Below are positions 34,349-53,894 of a stretch of DNA of 64,000 nt, piece after piece. Source of the stretch: Erythrobasidium yunnanense. Its lineage: Eukaryota; Basidiomycota; Cystobasidiomycetes; Erythrobasidiales; Erythrobasidiaceae. Made by a program: the position numbers and the translations under genes. The notes under the pieces were generated by a model. The model made no database searches and was not told where the DNA came from. It saw only the letters and a program-made list of their open reading frames with translations. The stretch spans positions 1,860,001 to 1,924,000 of the forward strand of contig BCJC01000004.1 in the NCBI GenBank assembly GCA_001600175.1, given 5' to 3'. Position 1 is the stretch's first letter, and every line of letters begins with the position of its first letter.

Positions 34349-35692
34349 CTATGAGTTGATTAGATCGCCAAAGATCCTCCTGCTATGCCTCAAAATTGAG
34401 AAATGATCACAATCTTGCAGCTCTGTAAGGAAGATTCTGCGGTCCAGACCGAGTGCAGTCTTGTCTTGCCTTGCTCTCCTCAGCTGCACAGCAAAAGCTT
34501 GCGCCGTCTTCATCGGTATAACTTCATCTGTGGCCGTATACCACATAAAGATCGGAATATTGCCAGCAGACAGTTTCTCGGGAGGGATGGGCCATGTTGA
34601 CAAGATCCGATAGGCGTCCCATAGCATGCCATCCGCAGTAGGAATGACTTCTTTGCGCACATTCTTGAGGATCGCTTGATTGCTCGCTTTGCCAAAGAAG
34701 GACTGCTTGGCGGCGGATCCACCGGCAGCTACAAGCTTCTCGACGCGATTTGGGCCAGCCGCTTTTTGATGATTGGCTTGAGATACAGCTGCAGCGGCAT
34801 TTGCTGAGAAATCCGTGATGCCATCGTGATGTTCGGCTGTCTTTTGATCTGCCGTGATGAAGTCTATGATGATTTGAGGAAAATTCGTCAATAAGGTAGT
34901 GCCGATTCTTGCAGGTAGCGGCATTGTTGCTTTACTGAGTGCGGTAGGGGGTAAGCCGGCAATCATAGCTAGGCCGGCGAGTCCTCTCGGTGCAAACTTG
35001 TTGCAGGCGAAGTACTGTGCTGCTGCTAGGGCGAAAGCTGCGCCTCCAGAGTATGCAAGGAAGTAGAAAGTATTCCAACGTTCGCTCTCTTCTGGCTGCG
35101 CCATGATGTAGTTGATAAGATATGCGATGTCTGCTGCGAAAGTTGTGAAGGCGCAGCCCGCAGAGTCTTTTGTGGGCGTTGAAAGTGCTACTCCGGGGCG
35201 ATCGATACAGAGCAGACGTATATTCATTTTGCTGGGTACTTGCTTGAAGTAGGCCCCGGCTGCGATCGGGAAATTCAGTCGACACGCCTTCATCTTGTCA
35301 CTAACGAGTCACTGACCGACACGACATTGCCACAACCCATTAAAATAGCAGATCTGACGTGCGTCTGCAGCTCGCGATCCATAGAAGGCATAAGAAAGGC
35401 TGCGACCATCGGGAAGCCGAAGGAGCCTGTCGCGCGGTTCAGGAGCAGTCGAAGATGACGTTGTAGATGCTGATGAGATGCTCCTGGTCCTTGATGCAGC
35501 TGAAGTTGCCGACGAGGCTACAGAAGCCGCGGAAAGAGCGTGCGGAGCTACCGAGGGTCTTTTAGGTGCACCGTATGTAGGAGCTGTCGGAATAGATGAT
35601 GATAGACTAGCTGTAGATGTAGTGCGTTGGGCTGCGAAAGGCCTTCTCTGAGCGGGAGGACAGACAGGCGCAGCTGATTGGCGAGAGAGCAT
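34349..35692 (-). CDS. Alpha/beta-hydrolase fold protein
   Basis: Two exons from the ATG at 35692 (MLSRQSAAPV). A Ser/Ala/Thr-rich head of about 90 residues comes before LPDGRSLSYAFYGS and ICYFNGL. One intron (about 35278-35345) leads into NIRLLCIDRPGVALST, the nucleophile elbow FLAYSGGAAFALAAAQY (Ser in Y-S-G-G), a helical cap of about 150 residues, the acid strand IFMWYTATDEVIPMKTAQAF and the histidine in LQDCDHFSILRHS. Ser, Asp and His are all in place, so a serine hydrolase is likely; the substrate is unknown. The head could be a mitochondrial targeting region or simply disordered. It converges with SET paralogue 3, with 76 bp between stops. Confidence 0.8.
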
Positions 35693-36767
35693 GATTGTGG
35701 CCGGCACAATGAGGTGAAGAGGGGCTTGAGATGTTGCGCTTGGTGGTGACAAGACTGACTGATCTCTACCTGAATTACCTCAGTCCAACTTGTCGTCCAT
35801 TATGAAAGGACTCGATACCTTAGCGAGACGGCCTCTTTCCCGAATGCGTGAGCTGCTACATGTGTCGGTCTGAAGCCACAGAGTCGGTGAGAAGCATCAA
35901 TTGCCTTTGACAGAGGCGGTCGACACCCAACTGCTTGAAAGAGACGTGTCGGCAGGCAGCCAAGAAGTGTTGAAGGGAAGCAGGATTGGCGGCAGCGACC
36001 CAGCGACTTTATGTCAAGCTAAGTAGCAGGGATAAGCTAGTAGCAGAGGTGCGTCTATATAGGCTAGGTGGTCGCTGAATTGTTAGGATCGGAGGTTCAT
36101 GCTGCATCCCAAGCATCCAGCGCGAATATTGTGTTTGAGATCATTCTTTGTATTAGAGGTGCTGTCTTGTTGTAAGCTGTTCGTTCCCTCCGCTACTGAC
36201 GGTCTCTTTCCATACGACCGATACGTCTGCGACTTGTACACGACATGGACTGCGGTGACTGCTTGACGTTGCTGACCTTATTGAAGCTACAGAAGTCAAT
36301 CTTGTTGAAAGAAAGGCTCCCAGCAACCTTTCAAACTCTTCAAGCGGACCTCTCCGAGTCAGACGTTGAGAGAGAAACGTGAGCGCCAGACGATTCAGAC
36401 TGGATGGTAGCGACATCAAAGAGCTGGCATTCTTCATACTGGTGCTGGTACCATCATCTGCTGGATATCAGATTGGTCTCTAGCAAAGCAGCAAGCATTC
36501 GCTTTTTTGCGAGCAGCGCCTTCTTTCGCATACACACCGTCAAGAAGCCGATTAAAGGAGGAGCTGTCAATGTAGACGAAGAAAAGATCTCGACATCTTT
36601 ACACATCAAGATTTGGAGCTCTTCCGGCTGACAGCGCCCCGCTTCGTTTAAAGCTGGCCTGACAGCTCGTCTTGGTTTGACTTCCTATCCTACACTCACA
36701 AAAACAGCAACTGCTCAAGCTCTGCACCCATCTCTTGCCATATTAACCAGCCTAAACACCAAACAGC
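35693..36767. other. Gene-poor region (about 1.1 kb)
   Basis: No supported gene. Open frames are short and have no domain or splice context. It marks the left edge of a stretch (to about 40.2 kb) in which the only convincing genes are three small cysteine-motif paralogues. Confidence 0.5.
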
Positions 36768-37016
36768 ATGTCCGCTGCATCTGCCCCCTGCACTGGCCGA
36801 GACAACCAGGTTCCAGCTGGTCACCACATCCCGCTACTGCACAGAGTCGACCGCGGAGGTGTTCCAACGATGGTCTACAAATGTAGGCTCTATCAGGCCA
36901 TGCATGACCTGAGCTGCGCTTTCCATGGCGCACCACATCGATTTGGAGTGCCCCGCCGAAGAGACAGTCTGGATCCCAAAGAATGCTTGCAGTGCCACGA
37001 GATGATCTACCAGTGA
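36768..37016 (+). CDS. Small CxxC-motif protein, paralogue 1 (82 aa)
   Basis: An intronless 82-residue frame. Key features are APC near the start, AGHHIP, KCRLY then a cysteine after seven residues (LSCAFHG), HRF, PRRRDSLDP and ECLQC. Two other proteins nearby (38183 and 39572) share this order and spacing: C-R-L-[CY]-x7-C, then 22 residues to C-x2-C. Here the second cysteine of the first pair is Tyr. There is no signal peptide or membrane segment; the paired cysteines suggest zinc binding, which is inference. I do not recognise the family. Conservation among three independent frames is the evidence that it is a gene. Confidence 0.65.
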   Translation: MSAASAPCTGRDNQVPAGHHIPLLHRVDRGGVPTMVYKCRLYQAMHDLSCAFHGAPHRFGVPRRRDSLDPKECLQCHEMIYQ

Positions 37017-38182
37017 TTGAGCATGTTAATCAAGAACGAGCGTCCCAGGTGGTCTTCATCTCCATCCACCAAACAAAACATGCGCGTAAAGCTCTAGTCG
37101 AAGTCAGCGTACTACCCTACTATCTTTATTCAGATTCTCATCCTCACTTCGTTACTCCTGCTGCCTGCTCTGCTCTGTCTCGCCTTCTGCAATGAAATAC
37201 GTTTCCTGAAGGATGCGTCGCCGGCTTTAGTCTCTCTATGCACAATCGCTACCTCGGAGACTGATGCTGCTCTCTGTCTAGTGTACTCTACAGCACACTC
37301 CGTCGTTGGCTCTCGTCAAGGCTACTTCTCGCACATCTCTAGACAGCTTAGGCCCGCGTTCTGTAGGCAGTCTACAGTCTACAAGCAACGATGCGAGGAG
37401 TACGACGCAACAACGCATAAGATGAGCCGACAGAAAAGACTCGACGTGGCATCCTGTCTCGCGCCAGGTTGACCAATGCTACAGAATCATCTGAACCTCT
37501 TTTCCTGACTACCCGCAGTCACAGCAGCAAACGCCGACGCATGTCTACTGTCACAATTACTTTCCTCCTCTATTCTAACAGGCCGACCTGTGCATAGCAT
37601 ACATACCCTTCAACGTACTGGTCGACCGACCTGCTCGTGTGCTGGCTCGAGGTGTTGTACGCAGATCACAGGACATCACACTCGCTTGGGCTGGCTCAGG
37701 AATTGTGATGGTCACGGAGCTATAGAAGTGCCGCGGGCAGCTGGATCAAGTCGAGACAAGGTCACGGCACCCCCGAGCGGACCTCTGCCAGCTTGGCCGG
37801 GAGCAGACGAAGTCGACTGTTGACGGCAAGCAGTGCGCTCCTCTGCAATACGCTGATGCCATGACTACAGGCATTGGTGTCCAGTTGATCTCCAGTCAAG
37901 CAACAGAGAACAAAGGGAGCTTTCTTCGGAGCAGAAGCGCTTCTCCTTACAAGGACCTCCGCAGCTCGACTCCGTGACTAAACAGAGAATATATAGGAAC
38001 AGAAGAATGGCAAGCTCCATCCCTAGCTGCCCCTAGATCAGGGAATCCACCTGCAGGCCACCCAGCTGGCTATAAACTGGCACGCGAGCTCCTCCTGCCT
38101 CTTGCTTTCCTGCACTTCAACAATTCGACTACTCGAGCTCTCTGTACAACTCAGTCGCATCAGCTCAGATCGCTCACTCACC
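37017..38182. other. Gene-poor region between paralogues 1 and 2
   Basis: About 1.17 kb without a supported gene. A splice-acceptor-like TCTAACAG at about 37575 precedes an open frame of about 45 codons, but no donor or start could be tied to it. The promoter of paralogue 2, with a TATA box, lies at the right end. Confidence 0.45.
38071..38077 (+). promoter_or_regulatory. TATA box of small CxxC-motif paralogue 2
   Basis: TATAAAC lies 112 bp before the ATG at 38183, the same distance as the TATA boxes of the hydrophobic-protein genes at 12 and 13.5 kb. Confidence 0.45.
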
Positions 38183-38443
38183 ATGCCCTCCCGCTGCAAT
38201 GGAACCGATCCAGATGGTCGAGTACGAGCTGGCACACACATACCGGTTATGCGATCACAAAGGGACAGATCAGGCCGATCGCAACGCATATATTACGAGT
38301 GTCGGCTCTGTCACGCCCAGGGCAACAGCAAGTGCGAGGTCGGACATAACTTCGACAACTCCCCACGTGAGAGAAGAGACGGCGGTCCCGAGCCCCTATT
38401 CTGTTCACGCTGTAACAACTGGATCCCGCCTCACGCACAATGA
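38183..38443 (+). CDS. Small CxxC-motif protein, paralogue 2 (86 aa)
   Basis: An intronless 86-residue protein, the clearest member of the family: SRC near the start, RAGTHIP, YECRLCHAQGNSKCEVGHNF, then RERRDGGPEP and FCSRCNNW. Both C-x2-C pairs are intact, with a further Cys and His between them, so a compact zinc-ribbon-like fold is plausible. It has many basic residues, no signal peptide and no membrane segment. The start at 38183 was chosen because the paralogues begin M-[PS]-S/A at the same distance from the first shared cysteine. It stands alone, with more than 1 kb on each side. Function unknown. Confidence 0.7.
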   Translation: MPSRCNGTDPDGRVRAGTHIPVMRSQRDRSGRSQRIYYECRLCHAQGNSKCEVGHNFDNSPRERRDGGPEPLFCSRCNNWIPPHAQ

Positions 38444-39571
38444 AATGTCTGAAGTATGAAGACTTCGTCCGAGATTCCACTGGATTGTCAATAACGAAGC
38501 AAAGCACGCCCAGAGCCACCAAAACGAACGCGAAGCTACGCGACCAGATGTGTCTGTGTCCGCAATGAGCATGCACTTGTATCTTCTCCTTTCCCTCGAC
38601 TCCTAACAAAAAACACTTGAAGTGCCTTTGTGCTCTCGACCTAATGTTTCTGGAGAGTACGCTTCCTTGGACCTCAATTGGCTAATGCAGAGTACTGACA
38701 GCGAGAAGCAATACGATAAGACGTGAAGTCCGACCGAGGTTGCCGTAGAAGCATATCTCGCGCGAAGCACACCAACTCATCTGCTGGCATTCAGTTGGTC
38801 CTTGTTCCCGTTCTCGTCGATCGACTCCGGTATGTACGGCTTGGCTAGTAGCTGGCATCAGACCTTTCAGCATCCTACCCAGCGATTATATCAGATCAAA
38901 CATGTCAAGGTGGTCTTGAGTGAGAGTGAGCTATTCGGAGGTCTTTCGAAAGCGTTGGTATCGTTAGCGTGGCTGTGTTGTCCTTGTTGAACTTCAGCAT
39001 GGATCACCGAATCGCGATGTCTATAAGGACGCGCTGGTGATGGGGACAGTGTGTGTGCTGGGCTCTTTGCGAATTCCAACCATCAGCAAGTTCGCGAGCC
39101 GAGCACATTCAGCTCATCATTGCTACTGCTCGTCTTTAGACCCTCAGATGTCCAGGGCGGATGCGCTCGACAGCCTGAGAGAAACGAACCGCGCCCTTCT
39201 AGCGGAACCTCTATAGAACTCCCAGCTTGCAAGAGACGAAGACGCCAAAGTAGCAGCTGCTAGACAAGATGCCGTTGATGCTGATTATGATAAGACTGTC
39301 CATCTGCTGCTGTCGAGTTGGTATCTGGCAGAGCAGCGAGGATTCAGGTTTTTTTGGAGCATCGCCTCTTCCCCTTACATGCCGGATCCCTCTTCATTCT
39401 TCGCACAAGGGTGCATAGTCCCAATGTCGGAAGACAGGGGCTTCCAATCCTTTCTGCGAGCCCTGTGTAAAAAGCTGGCGATTTTGCACCTGGCTTGTCT
39501 TCCTGCATTCTACGCAAGCGACAGGCCACTCCACTCTCAACATCACAAACAGCCAGGTCAAGAACGAAACA
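38444..39571. other. Gene-poor region between paralogues 2 and 3
   Basis: About 1.13 kb. It holds a short diverged copy of a condensin exon (38797-38870). It also holds a frame from the ATG at 39148 that reads MSRADALDSLRETNRALLAE, meets a stop, and continues as LARDEDAKVAAARQDAVDAD with HLLLSSWYLAEQRG. This may be a relic of a helical protein, but I cannot identify it. Confidence 0.45.
38797..38870 (-). repeat. Diverged fragment copy of condensin subunit gene
   Basis: About 74 bp matches 40866-40940 in the condensin gene in the same orientation at roughly 80% identity, with a 21-bp perfect core (TCGATCGACTCCGGTATGTAC). The matched gene part encodes the start of an exon (LYIPESIDENR). The copy has no coding context and ends at about the exon's acceptor side. 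A short duplicated gene fragment is the simplest reading. Confidence 0.7.
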
Positions 39572-39820
39572 ATGCCATCCGCCCGAGCCAGTTGCCCTGT
39601 TGCAGCCAATGGTGCCCATCTCGTAGGGCTCACCTTCGACCCGCGCCGCAACCCTGCTACACAGCACATATGCCGGCTCTGTGGTGCACAAAACCAACAC
39701 AGATGCGCGTTCCGTGGACAGGAACATCACCATAATTGGGGTGCTCCAGCTGGCGGTCGAAGGGACAGCAGCGGTCCAGAATTCCATTGCAGCATTTGTC
39801 GGCAAACATCTGATGTGTAA
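39572..39820 (+). CDS. Small CxxC-motif protein, paralogue 3 (82 aa)
   Basis: An intronless 82-residue protein: ASC near the start, HICRLCGAQNQHRCAFRG, a His-rich EHHHNW, GGRRDSSGPE and HCSIC. The C-R-L-C-x7-C and final C-x2-C spacing agrees with paralogues 1 and 2; the linker before the last pair is 27 rather than 22 residues. Shared words with paralogue 1 (CAF, RRDS) and with paralogue 2 (CRLC, GPE) show that all three are related to each other. No signal peptide. Function unknown; metal binding is inference. Confidence 0.65.
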   Translation: MPSARASCPVAANGAHLVGLTFDPRRNPATQHICRLCGAQNQHRCAFRGQEHHHNWGAPAGGRRDSSGPEFHCSICRQTSDV

Positions 39821-40239
39821 CGGTGGCCAGTCAATCCACCTATGCATGCCCCTCTGGTTGACACCTCTCATCAGCACCACAGACAACAGCAATGCGCATC
39901 CTCTGATACTTTGGACACCGAGCACCTAGACCGAATCTTCTTTTGTACTCCCTCAAACAATTGACCCTCCTGAAACACCAAAACTGCCCTCAATGGCTTT
40001 AGCCCTTGCTTGAGCCTTCAGCTTTCACTACTGAGATGTCAGATGGCAGGCGACGTTCCAGATGACCGATTCTTCTGCTTAGTTGCAGATGATATAGTCA
40101 TCAGCGAGTGTTCCACTGACTAGCTACAGACGTGTCGTGTCGAACCTTCTCTATACCGGAAGGGGAAAACAACGAAACAAGGCTAATGTAGAAGGATCGA
40201 ACACGAATTCACAAGCCAGCATATCAAAGCCTAGCGCAA
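39821..40239. other. Intergenic region
   Basis: About 420 bp between small paralogue 3 and the 3' end of the condensin gene, transcribed towards each other. No gene supported. Confidence 0.5.
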
Positions 40240-43200
40240 TCACATCGTATCACCAGAGTCCTCATCAACAGCAGCCAGCGCTGCAGCAACCGAATCATCA
40301 CCGCTGTCATCGCTTTCCTCCTCATCCTCCTCTTCGATGATGGGTTGAGGTTTCCGGACTACAGGTTTCGCCTTGCGTCCTGACCGACGCGAGCCAGTGC
40401 TAGCCATTGAAGTGTCTGCATCCGGCGCTTCCTCAGGCTCGACTGACGACTTGCTTGAGCTCGCAACACTGCTGGCTCGAGCACCACGTCGACCGCTCGC
40501 AGAAGGTGTCTGACTGATAGCTCTCTTCCGAGGCGCAGGCTTCTTCTTCTTTGCTGAAGTCTGTACGAAAGAATCTTCATCGCTGCCGTGCGCATCGTTC
40601 TGCTCTTGGACTTCCTTCAGGAAGCTGGCTGTCGCAGCGTAATGTTCGGCTTCGTATAGCTCCAGCATCTGATCGAACTCCTCTCCGTCAAGTACAGGGA
40701 ACTTCTTCTTCATGAGCTTCTTCAAGCCAGTCTCGAACTTGGTCAAGGCGTTGCGGGTGACCGAATCTTTGATGGGACGGTGCTGCAGACAATGGACGTC
40801 AGATACATAAACATAGGAAGATATGGGAGCATTCACCTGGCTCATTTGGCTAATCAGGAGGAGCAGGTTCTTGAGCCTGTTCTCATCGATCGACTCCGGT
40901 ATGTACAGCTTGCCCAGAAGCTGGCACCAAGTCTTTCGGGCGTCCTCTGCAGCAGAAAGCATCTAATTAGACATGCGTACTAAATCGCCAGATCGCGCTT
41001 ACTCTGCTTTTCCCGATAGATCTCCTTCAAGATGTCCGTTGCCAAGTCTACCTGAACGCATTCATCGACAGCGTTTCCTTCAGTCGCGACAGACTTTTGT
41101 GGGTCTGTCCAGTCGAGAAGCTGATTTAGAAGCTGAGTGGGAGAGACCATGGCAGATGGATCATCCAAATCTTCGTATACGCCAGCGAGAATCGAGAACG
41201 TCGGAATAAAGATCTGCGCATTGCGTCAGCAGCTAACAAGGGTGGTCGGATAATGGAAGCTGCATACCTCTCGCATCTTCTGCATGTTGGCAGACAATGA
41301 ATAGCAGTAAACAGGGAAGAAGTAGCTCAGACATTGTCTAAGTTCGAGATTGTCCAGTGTCTCGGGAGCAAAGTAGACCAAGACGAGTCGCTTGAGCACT
41401 TCGGAATCCGTAATCATGCCTGAAAGCATGAGCTTGGCGATCCCGATAGCTGCTGTCGCTTGGACCTGATGCGGATCTTGGTTGAGAGCATGTAGTATAA
41501 ACTCGATCACGACATCCGCCTGTACAAAGCTGTTCTTAGCCAAACAAGGAAGTGAAGCTAAATGAACTCGATGCTCACGCCATGCCCTTTGCTCTCCAAG
41601 AAACCAAGGCCATAGAGCATGAGTATATCGAAAACGATCTGGAAGATCTTGACCTGAAGCTCGCCTTCCGTTTCTTGTGATTGATGTACGTAAAGTCCGA
41701 AGGCGTCCAGAGCCATCGCCTATGTCGACAGATGAGCTCGATGTATCTTATACCTTTAGTTTATAGATGTATGCTACTCACTTTGTCAAGCAGCGAGCAG
41801 AGTCCCAAGCAGAGCAGACCCTCTTCGCGGATCTCAGGCTCTTTGCTCTTAACGCTTGGAACGATCAATTCGTGGATCATACCGAGCAGGGTAGCGTTCT
41901 CCTGTACGGACTGCATCACCATTCAGCTTTCAATCAGCATGCTAAAGTATGTAACAATGGATTCTGGACTCACGCCTGCAACTCTCTCCAGGAGCGCTCT
42001 AACGATAGCCAAGCATCTGGTGTGATTCTCCTTCCTATCCGGATCCAATTGCTGGTTCTGCACTCTCATAGCAGCTTTCAACTGGCGTTTCCTCTGATCT
42101 TCAGCGATATCTTCCACAGTCGCCGTGTCCAGATCCAGTTCTTCTTCGTCATCGTCTTCCTCGATATGGCCAGGCTGGTTGTTGACGTCTTCTCGAATAT
42201 TCTGTACGATCTCGACGACCACACGCATGAAGTCCTTCTCGTGCGAAGAAAGCTTGAGAAGCACGTCCATGCATCCGGCGATAAGCTCAGAGGGCAGATT
42301 TGGATCAGAAACCATATCGCCTGCGCAAGTTCTATCAGCACCAATTCTTAAGCAGATTCTGTATACTCACGGATCAAGGTAAACATCTTTCTCCGGCCAA
42401 TCTCATCACCATAATCTTCCATCAGAGCGATTTTCAGCAGCTGATCCGTAATGAAGACAGTTTCTTGGAAGTTCTGTCGCAGTTCTGCAGTCTCAGCGTC
42501 TTCTGCCTCGTCTTCATCGAGATCTTCGAGAGGCGGCAGGGCAGCGATCCGAGATACTTGGCCGGAGATGTGTGTGTAGAGATCTTGAATGCGGAAGGCT
42601 AGAGCAGTGATTACTGGGAGACAGGCTTCCAGGCGGAGCTCGTCCTGTCGACAGAATCAGCAAGGCTCAGAGCATTAGTGCGTAAGGACAGCTCACATTG
42701 ACGTCCTTGCAGTATGCAGCATACACTCGAGCAAGCAGAGCTGATTCCGGCGATAGGTCAGTCCAGAAAATGTCTGTTTGCCGCAAAGCAAGTCAGCTTC
42801 TTCGGCTTTCAATAGGCTAAATTCACGTATAAATTACCTGGAAACTCGAGCTGGTTCGCAAGATCCTGTCTGAGCTCGATGACAGTGTTCAACGCGTCCT
42901 CTGCGATCTTGGTCTTGCCCATAGTATCAAATAGCCCAACGAACTATATCCACCACCGCATAAATTAGCCGAACCTCCTTAGCGAGACTTTAGGATACGA
43001 AAGCGCACCTCGACTAGTCCACCTGCATCAGGTAGTTCTCCAGCCCATCTCGCTACAAGCGCTCTGGCAGCTTTCTTGACAGCCTCTTCGCGATCCTTAC
43101 AGCCATGTCGGATAATCAGCTCCCTCTGAGGCAGGCTGAGGACTGCCATGTGTGGTATATCTCGCAAGATGGAGGTGTATAGGAACTTGCGGTTGAGTGG

Positions 43201-51117: not shown

Positions 51118-53894
51118 ATGGTATACCGTCGTAATGATCATAAGAACAGCCTGCTCCATCTCGATGCAATAGCGACATCTTACAGCAGCCATGCACAAGA
51201 GAAAGCCCGCCGAAAGGTCAGGCATCACTCTGGATGGGCATCCAAGTTTGATGTAGTCCAGCAATTATCTGGAGGAGAAGAAGGCTATGGCGATGGTGTC
51301 GGTATCTATGGCCAGTCAGTCGAAATCCATTCTGGATCATGCTTGAGCTGATGACCGTATCGACAGTACCGGATGCATCAATGCTCTGAACTGGTCCAGC
51401 GATGGCACACTACTAGCTTCAGGAAGTGACGACACAAAGTCAGCCTGGCCCTCCTTCACTTCGTGCAGCCGGCTAAGCGTGTCATCATCAGGGTCTGTCT
51501 CTGGAAGCTCGGGCAAGAACCAGATTATATACATCCGCAGAATGAAGACGTCGTCAATCACTATCCCTCACTAGGTCTAGGACTATCAGCCGTGTGCGCC
51601 CAAATCATCATTCCGGCTACTGCTTCCTCAGCTAAGATTGTATACAGGATTCATACGGGCCACCGCGCCAACATCTTCTCCGTCAAGTTCTCTCCTACAC
51701 GAAACAGCCATATCTTCACTGCTGCAGGGGACCACGAAGTGCGAGTCTTCGACCTCTCTACCCAATCCTCAATCTCCAATTCCATCCATTCGCGCGTTTC
51801 TTCTCCTCCACGAGAATGGACTGAATACCCTACTACAAGCGGGGTATGTACGCGCGTCCTGAAATGCCACAGAGGGAGAGTCAAGAGAATAAGCACGGAA
51901 GAAGGATCAGATTCAACCTTCTTGACGTGTTCGGAGGACGGTACTGTGCGACAACATGATCTAAGAGTGGGGCATAAATGCGGGCCACTACAGTGCCCAC
52001 CGCCGTTGTGCAGTTATAGACACCTAGGCTTAGGCCTGTATAGCCTGTCGACGAGTCCGCTCAGGCCGTGAGTCCCTTCTCTTCCACTTTCTCCAATGAA
52101 AGCGGCAGCTGATGTTTCATTTGGCTTTCTAGCGAACTCTTTGTAGTAGCGGGCACATCGCCCTATGCGTACCTACACGATCGGCGGATGATCCCACATA
52201 CGATGCTCGAACAATGGGGAATCCCTCTCCAAGCTGGTCAACTCACACAATGCGTACGCCGCTTCGGGCCTGCTGTACCTCCTCTTGTCCCCGGTCCTCC
52301 TCCTGCGCCTGAAGTTGCTTCTGATTCAGAAGAAGAAGACGAAGAGGATATGGTCGGCCCGCCTCTGCCAGCTGAAGAATTGGAAAGGAGGAGAATACAT
52401 GCTAGACGGAAAGCAGCGCGCCAACGAGCAAGACGCGCACAAGCTCAGACAGCTGCAAGGAATAGCGACAATAATCATGTCACAGCTGCGAAACTGTCGA
52501 CCGTTGATGGGAGAGAGCTGTTATTGACATATTCGGGAGGACCGGTGTGCAGATATGATATCTTCGATACGCCGGAGATGCCTAAGAGAGCGGGAATGGA
52601 GGAGGAGAGGCGGAACAGAGATATGAGATCTGCAGAATCTGCTCACGAGCAGAGCAAGAGAGCATTGGGAGGAGAAGCTGGACCTTCTGTCCCGACACCT
52701 ACAACCGAAGGATACTGGGAAAGACATGCCAAAATGCAGAAAAGGGCAAAGCAGCCATCAGAGCCCGCTGAGGAAGCTCGGAAACCCTCTTCACACTTTC
52801 TGACACACAGTCTCGAAGATGATCCGAGTCTGATCAGGCGCGGGACGAATGCGCAAAATGAGGTAGAGGGTGAGGAGGATGAGGAGGATGAGGGAGTCTA
52901 CGGCCCTGCTCCTCTGTCAGTAGCAGATACAATCGGAGAAGAAGAAACTGCAGAACCTTCTAACGCGCCGCAAGAGCGACGGCAGCGCGCTTTTGAGATT
53001 CGAGTAGGCGAAGATGGAGAGCTAGAGATGGATGTCGAAGAGGCGGAAGAGGAAGGCAGTACTGAAAGCGAAGAGAGTGAAGATACCGAGACTGAAGAGA
53101 TGAACACGCAAGGCTTGCAAGAATTGCTGAGAAACGTAGCGAGCGGCAGTGGGGTAGTCGAAGGCGGAACCTCTTCAGAAGAGGAATACGACGGGCCCGA
53201 ACCACTCCCTGAAGACGAGATGCGTCGCCTCCTCGCTGAAGCTGAAGAGGATGACGAAGATGAAGAAGTTAGTGGCGAGGACATTTCCGACAGCGACTCC
53301 ATTCCATCTCCACCTGATAACGGGTCGACCATCTATTCCGAAGTACCTCTCGTCCGCCCCATTGCAGCTTACACAGGGCATCGAAACGTCGATACTGTCA
53401 AAGACGTAAATTTCGGCGGCGGGGACGATTCTCTGATCATCTCAGGCTCGGACGACGGGAATCTCTTCATCTGGAACAAAGAGTCTAAGAATGAGTTGAT
53501 AGGTATATGGAAGGGAGACGAAAGTGTGGTAAATGTAATGCAGTGGCATCCGTACTTACCTGTCCTAGCGGTGAGCGGGATAGACAATTCAGTGAAGATC
53601 CTGGCGCCTACGCAGGGTGTACAAGGCAGGAGATGGGCATCTAGAATGGATAAGAAGGAAGAGATAGAGAAGAAGAATACCGATCAAACGTGGTCTAGCC
53701 AGGGACTGGGAATCAATCCGAATGTCCTGCTGAGATTGTTGGCGAGAAGGCAGGCTGAAAATGGTGAAGAAGATGAGCAGGAAGAAGGCGAGGGAGGTGC
53801 GAGAAGGCAGACGAGAAGAATTCCGCTCCAGGCGCTCTTACAGCTGGCGCAGGAGGGTGGGGCGGACGAGAGAGGAGATTGCACGATCATGTAG
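51118..53894 (+). CDS. WD40 protein of the DDB1-CUL4-associated factor (DCAF5/6/8) type
   Basis: Four exons: 51118-51316, about 51366-51438, about 51490-52070 and about 52133-53894. The introns join perfectly: CA plus T rebuilds the His of GHTGCINALNWSSDGTLLAS. WD units include GSDDTKVCLWKLGQ, GHRANIFSVKFSPTRNSHIF, GDHEVRVFDLSTQ, KCHRGRVKRISTEEGSDSTF and SEDGTVRQHDLR. The last two blades come after a long Glu/Ser-rich insert of about 330 residues: YTGHRNVDTVKDVNFGGGDD and GSDDGNLFIWNKES. This split propeller is typical of DCAF5/6/8 relatives, which load substrates on CUL4-DDB1. The protein ends CTIM, which fits a CaaX prenylation box; it is unusual for this family. Confidence 0.88.

Follow-up and report, generated by a model that had tools for sequence, protein, structure and literature searches.

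What was duplicated where three small, cysteine-rich open reading frames follow one another on a single strand of the Erythrobasidium yunnanense genome: the frames themselves, or something more? The DNA analysed here (the window) is a stretch of 64 kb, in which an original prediction, made from the letters alone, had placed three intronless genes of 82, 86 and 82 codons, here called A, B and C. All three frames are present where they had been placed, each running from ATG to stop on the forward strand (Table 1), and they are intronless as open frames, which is the kind of evidence on which that description stands. They had been said to lie more than 1 kb apart, and the gaps are indeed 1,166 bp (A-B) and 1,128 bp (B-C). 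"Dispersed", on the other hand, is the wrong word for a trio on one strand with start-to-start distances of 1,415 and 1,389 bp.

Table 1. Positions in the window of the three frames and of the DNA features that precede them
Feature	Position	Strand	Description
ORF A	36768..37016	+	ATG to stop, 82 aa, pI 8.7, 5 Cys; second Cys of C-x2-C replaced by Tyr
ORF B	38183..38443	+	ATG to stop, 86 aa, pI 9.2, 6 Cys
ORF C	39572..39820	+	ATG to stop, 82 aa, pI 9.0, 6 Cys
Upstream element of A	36454..36541	+	about 310-230 bp before ATG
Upstream element of B	37872..37954	+	about 310-230 bp before ATG
Upstream element of C	39301..39384	+	about 270-190 bp before ATG
TATA-like (T/A)AAA..CTGGC motif before A	36649..36658	+	about -119
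Same motif before B	38073..38081	+	about -110; TATAAACTGGC
Same motif before C	39469..39479	+	about -103

Fourteen frames of at least 60 codons overlap 37017-39571; some are A, B and C themselves or their shadows, and others occupy the gaps on either strand. The left neighbour of the trio is an alpha/beta-hydrolase-like frame on the minus strand (34352-35293; Abhydrolase_1, E 2.9e-5, 24.3 bits, just under the cut-off of 25.8) and the right neighbour a condensin-subunit frame, also on the minus strand (40982-41168; Cnd3, E 7.1e-10, exceeding the cut-off), with a frame of no assigned family ahead of it at 40243-40962. A 193-codon frame with a GTG start (39344-39925, minus strand) is antisense to all of ORF C and longer than it. 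Over 34349-35752 (minus strand) the hydrolase-like frame and a 147-codon frame before it share one reading frame with a stop between them, so that, if they belong to one gene, that gene is spliced or broken. Elsewhere in the window, a 568-codon frame (52188-53894, plus strand) has a middle part that is very acidic by eye and one WD40 stretch over the Pfam cut-off, and the best match of an MPP-beta-like frame is 8q1b ("probable mitochondrial-processing peptidase subunit beta"), followed by a Yarrowia chain with a YALI name.

The trio had been called paralogous, and this is borne out both by pairwise scores beyond those of shuffled sequences and by mutual genome-wide matches of A and B. Local BLOSUM62 scores are 78 (A-B), 68 (A-C) and 71 (B-C), against shuffle means of 26.5-28.4; they are reached by 0, 1 and 0 of 20,000 shuffles, respectively, and by 0, 3 and 15 when the cysteines are held in place. 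Scored in global mode, the corresponding counts are 0, 0 and 0, and 0, 2 and 33 of 20,000 with the cysteines held. Nor is any of these pairwise scores attained by the window's other stop-free frames, of which 521 were compared. When the host genome (20.9 Mb in 10 contigs) is searched, query A retrieves B (E 4.4e-4) and query B retrieves A (8.4e-4); ORF C is matched by neither, and as a query it matches itself alone, at E up to 10. A consensus query, which fits A, B and C by construction, finds exactly those three places (E 3.5e-23 to 2.2e-17, the latter for C) and no fourth at E up to 10; the first look yielded these three candidates only, and the counts are lower bounds. In the same genome the sole 5.8S rRNA match returned when 39 of the 876 first-look candidates were scored (G000:C1:4391638-4391762, minus strand) is a partial one (model positions 40-154) and degenerate-looking by eye. 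It lies about 300 bp ahead of what, again by eye, resembles the start of an HSP70 gene; the assembly may lack an intact rDNA array.

Further relatives were sought nearer by and farther afield. An unfiltered protein-profile run over 264 kb around the trio returned A, B, C and one match at 0.017, with nothing else below 1.4. That match (L030; E 0.017 is summed over two pieces, the better one at 0.31) consists of partial matches to a 50-residue frame lying over longer opposite-strand ORFs and is put down to chance. One of 80 pattern stretches (L006, bacterial), whose frame reads CRLCGAQGDHVC, was rejected as a relative: it had been picked by pattern for just that stretch from a very large collection, and its frame is without the distal CxxC and closed by stops and overlies, in a different frame, an actinobacterial ORF of 102 aa. 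A pattern scan of viral contigs with query A1 gave 13 pattern stretches and no relatives. The trio had also been described as a locally expanding family. Local it is, in that all three places found by the consensus query are here; the copies, at only 33-36% identity, are not recent ones.

All three proteins contain the motifs that had been listed: C-R-L-[CY] with another Cys seven residues on, H-[RN]-[FW], RRD and, close to the C-terminal end, C-x2-C. Two copies do have the same spacing from the third Cys to the last pair (22 residues in A and in B, 27 in C). A MAFFT alignment has 14 invariant columns, including Met1, G-x-H, C-R-L, an alanine, the third Cys, a His, the RR pair and the last C-x2-C. 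An N-terminal Cys (residue 8 in A, 5 in B and 8 in C) is common to all three and had been left out of the list. The cysteine layout alone is unremarkable: a loose C..[CY]...C...C..C pattern matches five places in 1,958 six-frame stretches, namely A, B, C and two others. All three chains have a basic pI (8.7-9.2) and contain 5-6 Cys and 4-7 His each. B and C have two CxxC pairs, and A carries C-x2-Y instead of one of them; since two of the three copies keep the Cys, A would be the one that has lost it.

New here, and missed by the original prediction, is the finding that each gene is preceded by a copy of one non-coding element of ~85 bp. The 600 bp before each ATG were compared by local alignment and against 500 shuffles, and the coordinates in Table 1 come from a profile of the three copies. 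The A-C alignment scores 37.5 (null maximum 20.0, 0/500) and the A-B alignment 25.0 (null maximum 21.5, 0/500), extending to -44; the B-C score of 20.0 is attained by one of the 500 shuffles. Identities within the element are 67/86 (A-C), 44/78 (A-B) and 48/79 (B-C). The 500 bp downstream of the frames have no DNA in common, their scores being attained by 46, 438 and 323 of 500 shuffles. Between upstream stretch and gene in the A-C pair, it is the gene that has changed more: against 67/86 in the element stands an identity of 36-49% per codon position in the frames. This contrast of element and ORF is smaller for A-B and B-C. As an explanation of the better-kept A-C stretch, gene conversion is an alternative to constraint.

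How far the element extends beyond the trio was followed over 264 kb (the window and 100 kb on each side, both strands, in 2.2-kb pieces; B's copy falls in A's piece and is not scored apart). Leaving aside the piece that contains it, A's element scores highest in the piece holding C's copy (37.5; next 18.5), and C's element in the one holding the copies of A and B (37.5; next 16.0). A 22-letter core pattern of the element is found without mismatch in the genome only at A and C, and the likeness at six places with 2-3 mismatches is short (best local score 19.0); among loci chosen by this pattern the best nhmmer E is 0.0037, over 30 bases. Genome-wide DNA searches with A's element, C's element and a consensus return one place each and miss known copies at 56-78% identity, so that they cannot show the element to be unique in the genome.

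Closer to the ATG, each gene has the same TATA-like/CTGGC motif (Table 1). This motif, which was drawn after inspection of the three copies, has four occurrences on both strands of the 64 kb, three of them at the trio; a second form has five, again with three at the trio. The proximal promoters of A and B have about -145 to -44 in common (0/1,000 shuffles), and that of C is not significantly like either (scores attained by 104 and 162 of 1,000 shuffles). A bacterial-type promoter/terminator scan was uninformative for a fungus.

Our preferred reading of the locus, to which we give about an even chance (0.5), is that of a tandem-duplicated upstream-plus-gene unit, probably co-regulated, encoding intracellular one-zinc proteins that would bind nucleic acid or a partner. 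An ancestral unit, made up of an upstream regulatory stretch and a small single-exon gene, would have been duplicated twice in tandem on the same strand. That the unit comprised the upstream region as well as the gene follows from the combination of related ORFs with related upstream DNA; the order and age of the duplications are inferred. Since one upstream element is still common to all three genes, they are probably switched on together. Their products would be small, basic and, having no hydrophobic N-terminus, probably intracellular. The C-x2-C and the distal C-x2-C would act as two knuckles around a single zinc ion, with the Cys seven residues on and the conserved His assisting, and the conserved arginines might be presented to nucleic acid or to a partner protein. 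In copy A, Tyr in place of one knuckle Cys would imply either a substitute metal ligand or a changed role. A bolder extension, which we think improbable, has the ~85-bp element commanding three fast-diversifying, signal-less, metal-binding proteins, with the control DNA under more constraint than the proteins. Such a family would be co-regulated and intracellular and would owe its shape to repeated conflict, such as self-recognition or defence against mobile elements.

Are the frames coding at all? They might instead be remnants of a gene unit that was duplicated, or ride in a duplicated non-coding locus, and not, or no longer, be translated. Their codon usage is atypical: measured against 14 long frames of the window, A, B and C rank at the 15th (A), 13th (B) and 5th (C) percentile among 9,142 other stop-free windows of 82 codons, a set with mutual overlaps that may include unrecognised genes; by synonymous choice alone they rank at the 35th, 11th and 5th. 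The high cysteine content could account in part for the overall percentiles, though not for those of synonymous choice. The better-kept upstream element of the A-C pair and the longer frame antisense to C point the same way. Against this, all three frames are open from an aligned Met to the stop, and amino acids have been kept through synonymous change: the codons differ at 14/26, 15/24 and 15/24 same-residue positions in the three pairs. Identities at codon positions 1/2/3 are 45/49/36% (A-C), 49/54/39% (A-B) and 43/53/29% (B-C). Over the aligned blocks the ORF frame is the best of six (BLOSUM sums of 122, 99 and 103, against at most 41, -5 and -2), in a comparison that favours it, the alignment having been optimised in that frame. 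Untranslated frames strike us as an unlikely account. RIP was rejected as the cause of divergence, its indices in 36.2-40.2 kb (0.69/1.33) equalling those of the window (0.71/1.34).

If the frames are translated, as the reading of a duplicated upstream-plus-gene unit has it, the next question is whether their products belong to something already described. The original prediction knew of no such family, and this holds as far as Pfam, NCBIfam and PHROGs are concerned: there is no match over cut-off, NCBIfam giving none at all and PHROGs one, at 0.86. Nor is the family described in the abstract openings that the literature search covered, a scope that does not amount to proof of unpublished status. 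Two sub-threshold Pfam scores of B raise the prospect that the trio has diverged from a zinc domain already known, either the second half of a CHY finger or an RPB9-type zinc ribbon: Zn_ribbon_RPB9 (PF02150) at E 0.0044, with 17.3 bits against a curated cut-off of 25.2, and zf-CHY (PF05495) at E 0.066 over residues 37-79, with 14.1 bits against 31.3. The longer open frame around B gives 0.018 and 0.031 (15.1 bits), respectively, and CHY sequences, like B, have CRxCH ... H ... CxxC. These leads are weak because shuffles of B that preserve Cys and His also match sub-threshold: six of ten match something at E<1, the best at 0.013. A matches DUF6238 alone (0.062) and C nothing; both are absent from the zf-CHY and Rpb9 zinc-ribbon matches at E up to 10, of which HMMER filters drop most above 0.1. 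The N-terminal CxHY motif of zf-CHY is, by eye, missing from A, B and C, and the host genome gave no zf-CHY match (0/1; introns could hide one) in a search that was positive in 2 of 14 control genomes. Descent from either domain seems doubtful. A PDB sequence search with B alone found nothing, and a lactoferrin match (best E 0.0059 with C, 0.15 with the profile) was rejected as a short CRLC...CAF coincidence.

As to the fold, the two CxxC pairs in B and C, with the conserved Cys and His, would suit a small zinc-held structure, and the three proteins would most likely hold zinc through C-x2-C ... C-x2-C. The more specific zinc-ribbon-like fold of the original prediction stays as conditional as it was there, the Pfam scores of B being below cut-off and AlphaFold2 models from three-sequence input not confident (mean pLDDT 48.3 with C first, 51.6 with B first).

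The same cysteines could, in principle, serve a quite different purpose, the trio being disulphide-stabilised proteins exported without a signal peptide, for instance to act on other organisms. The six cysteines of B and C would suit this. So would the A-C pair, whose proteins have diverged strongly next to upstream DNA that is conserved, as has often been described for families of secreted fungal proteins. Yet A has five cysteines, and CxxC pairs together with a conserved His suit metal better than disulphides. In a rough hydropathy scan, moreover, none of the three has a signal-peptide-like hydrophobic N-terminus (best 12-residue mean in the first 41 residues: 0.32 for A, 0.11 for B and 1.10 for C). 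Export is in our judgement improbable.

Least probable of all is that the element was copied without regard to the ORFs, as a mobile sequence or the gene of a small non-coding RNA. No other DNA found in the A-C pair is as well conserved, but the element lies at a similar distance from the ATG at all three genes, its folds are of ordinary stability (6/6 with z between -1.33 and +1.16), the two Rfam matches in 35.7-40.3 kb are far below gathering score, its profile has no further match below E 0.65 in the 264 kb, and its core pattern behaves in the genome as described above. Gaps between the copies are not multiples of three, and this, with the unremarkable RNA folds, fits a DNA control sequence, as the duplicated upstream-plus-gene unit would have it. 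If real and expressed, such a unit would be a compact case in which to ask why upstream DNA can outlast its protein after duplication, and fungal gene catalogues would gain a family that has no curated profile; failing that, the trio is a small gene family of the ordinary sort.

Comparison with known systems places the trio as follows. B resembles zf-CHY, at a sub-threshold level, in its CRLCH-like knuckle, later His and distal CxxC; the trio differs in that B alone matches, below cut-off, in having no CxHY start, and in the wider spacing of its knuckles. The resemblance to Zn_ribbon_RPB9 is a short match near B residues 30-45 that scores below cut-off and, in its best stretch, takes in 15 of the 36 profile positions; A and C are unmatched. 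With the tandem families of small Cys-rich proteins in fungi the trio shares small size, richness in cysteine, tandem arrangement, strong divergence and confinement to one locus, but many described families of that kind carry signal peptides, which the trio apparently does not. Small tandem families are familiar from fungi; the better-kept upstream DNA of A and C is what deserves a second look.
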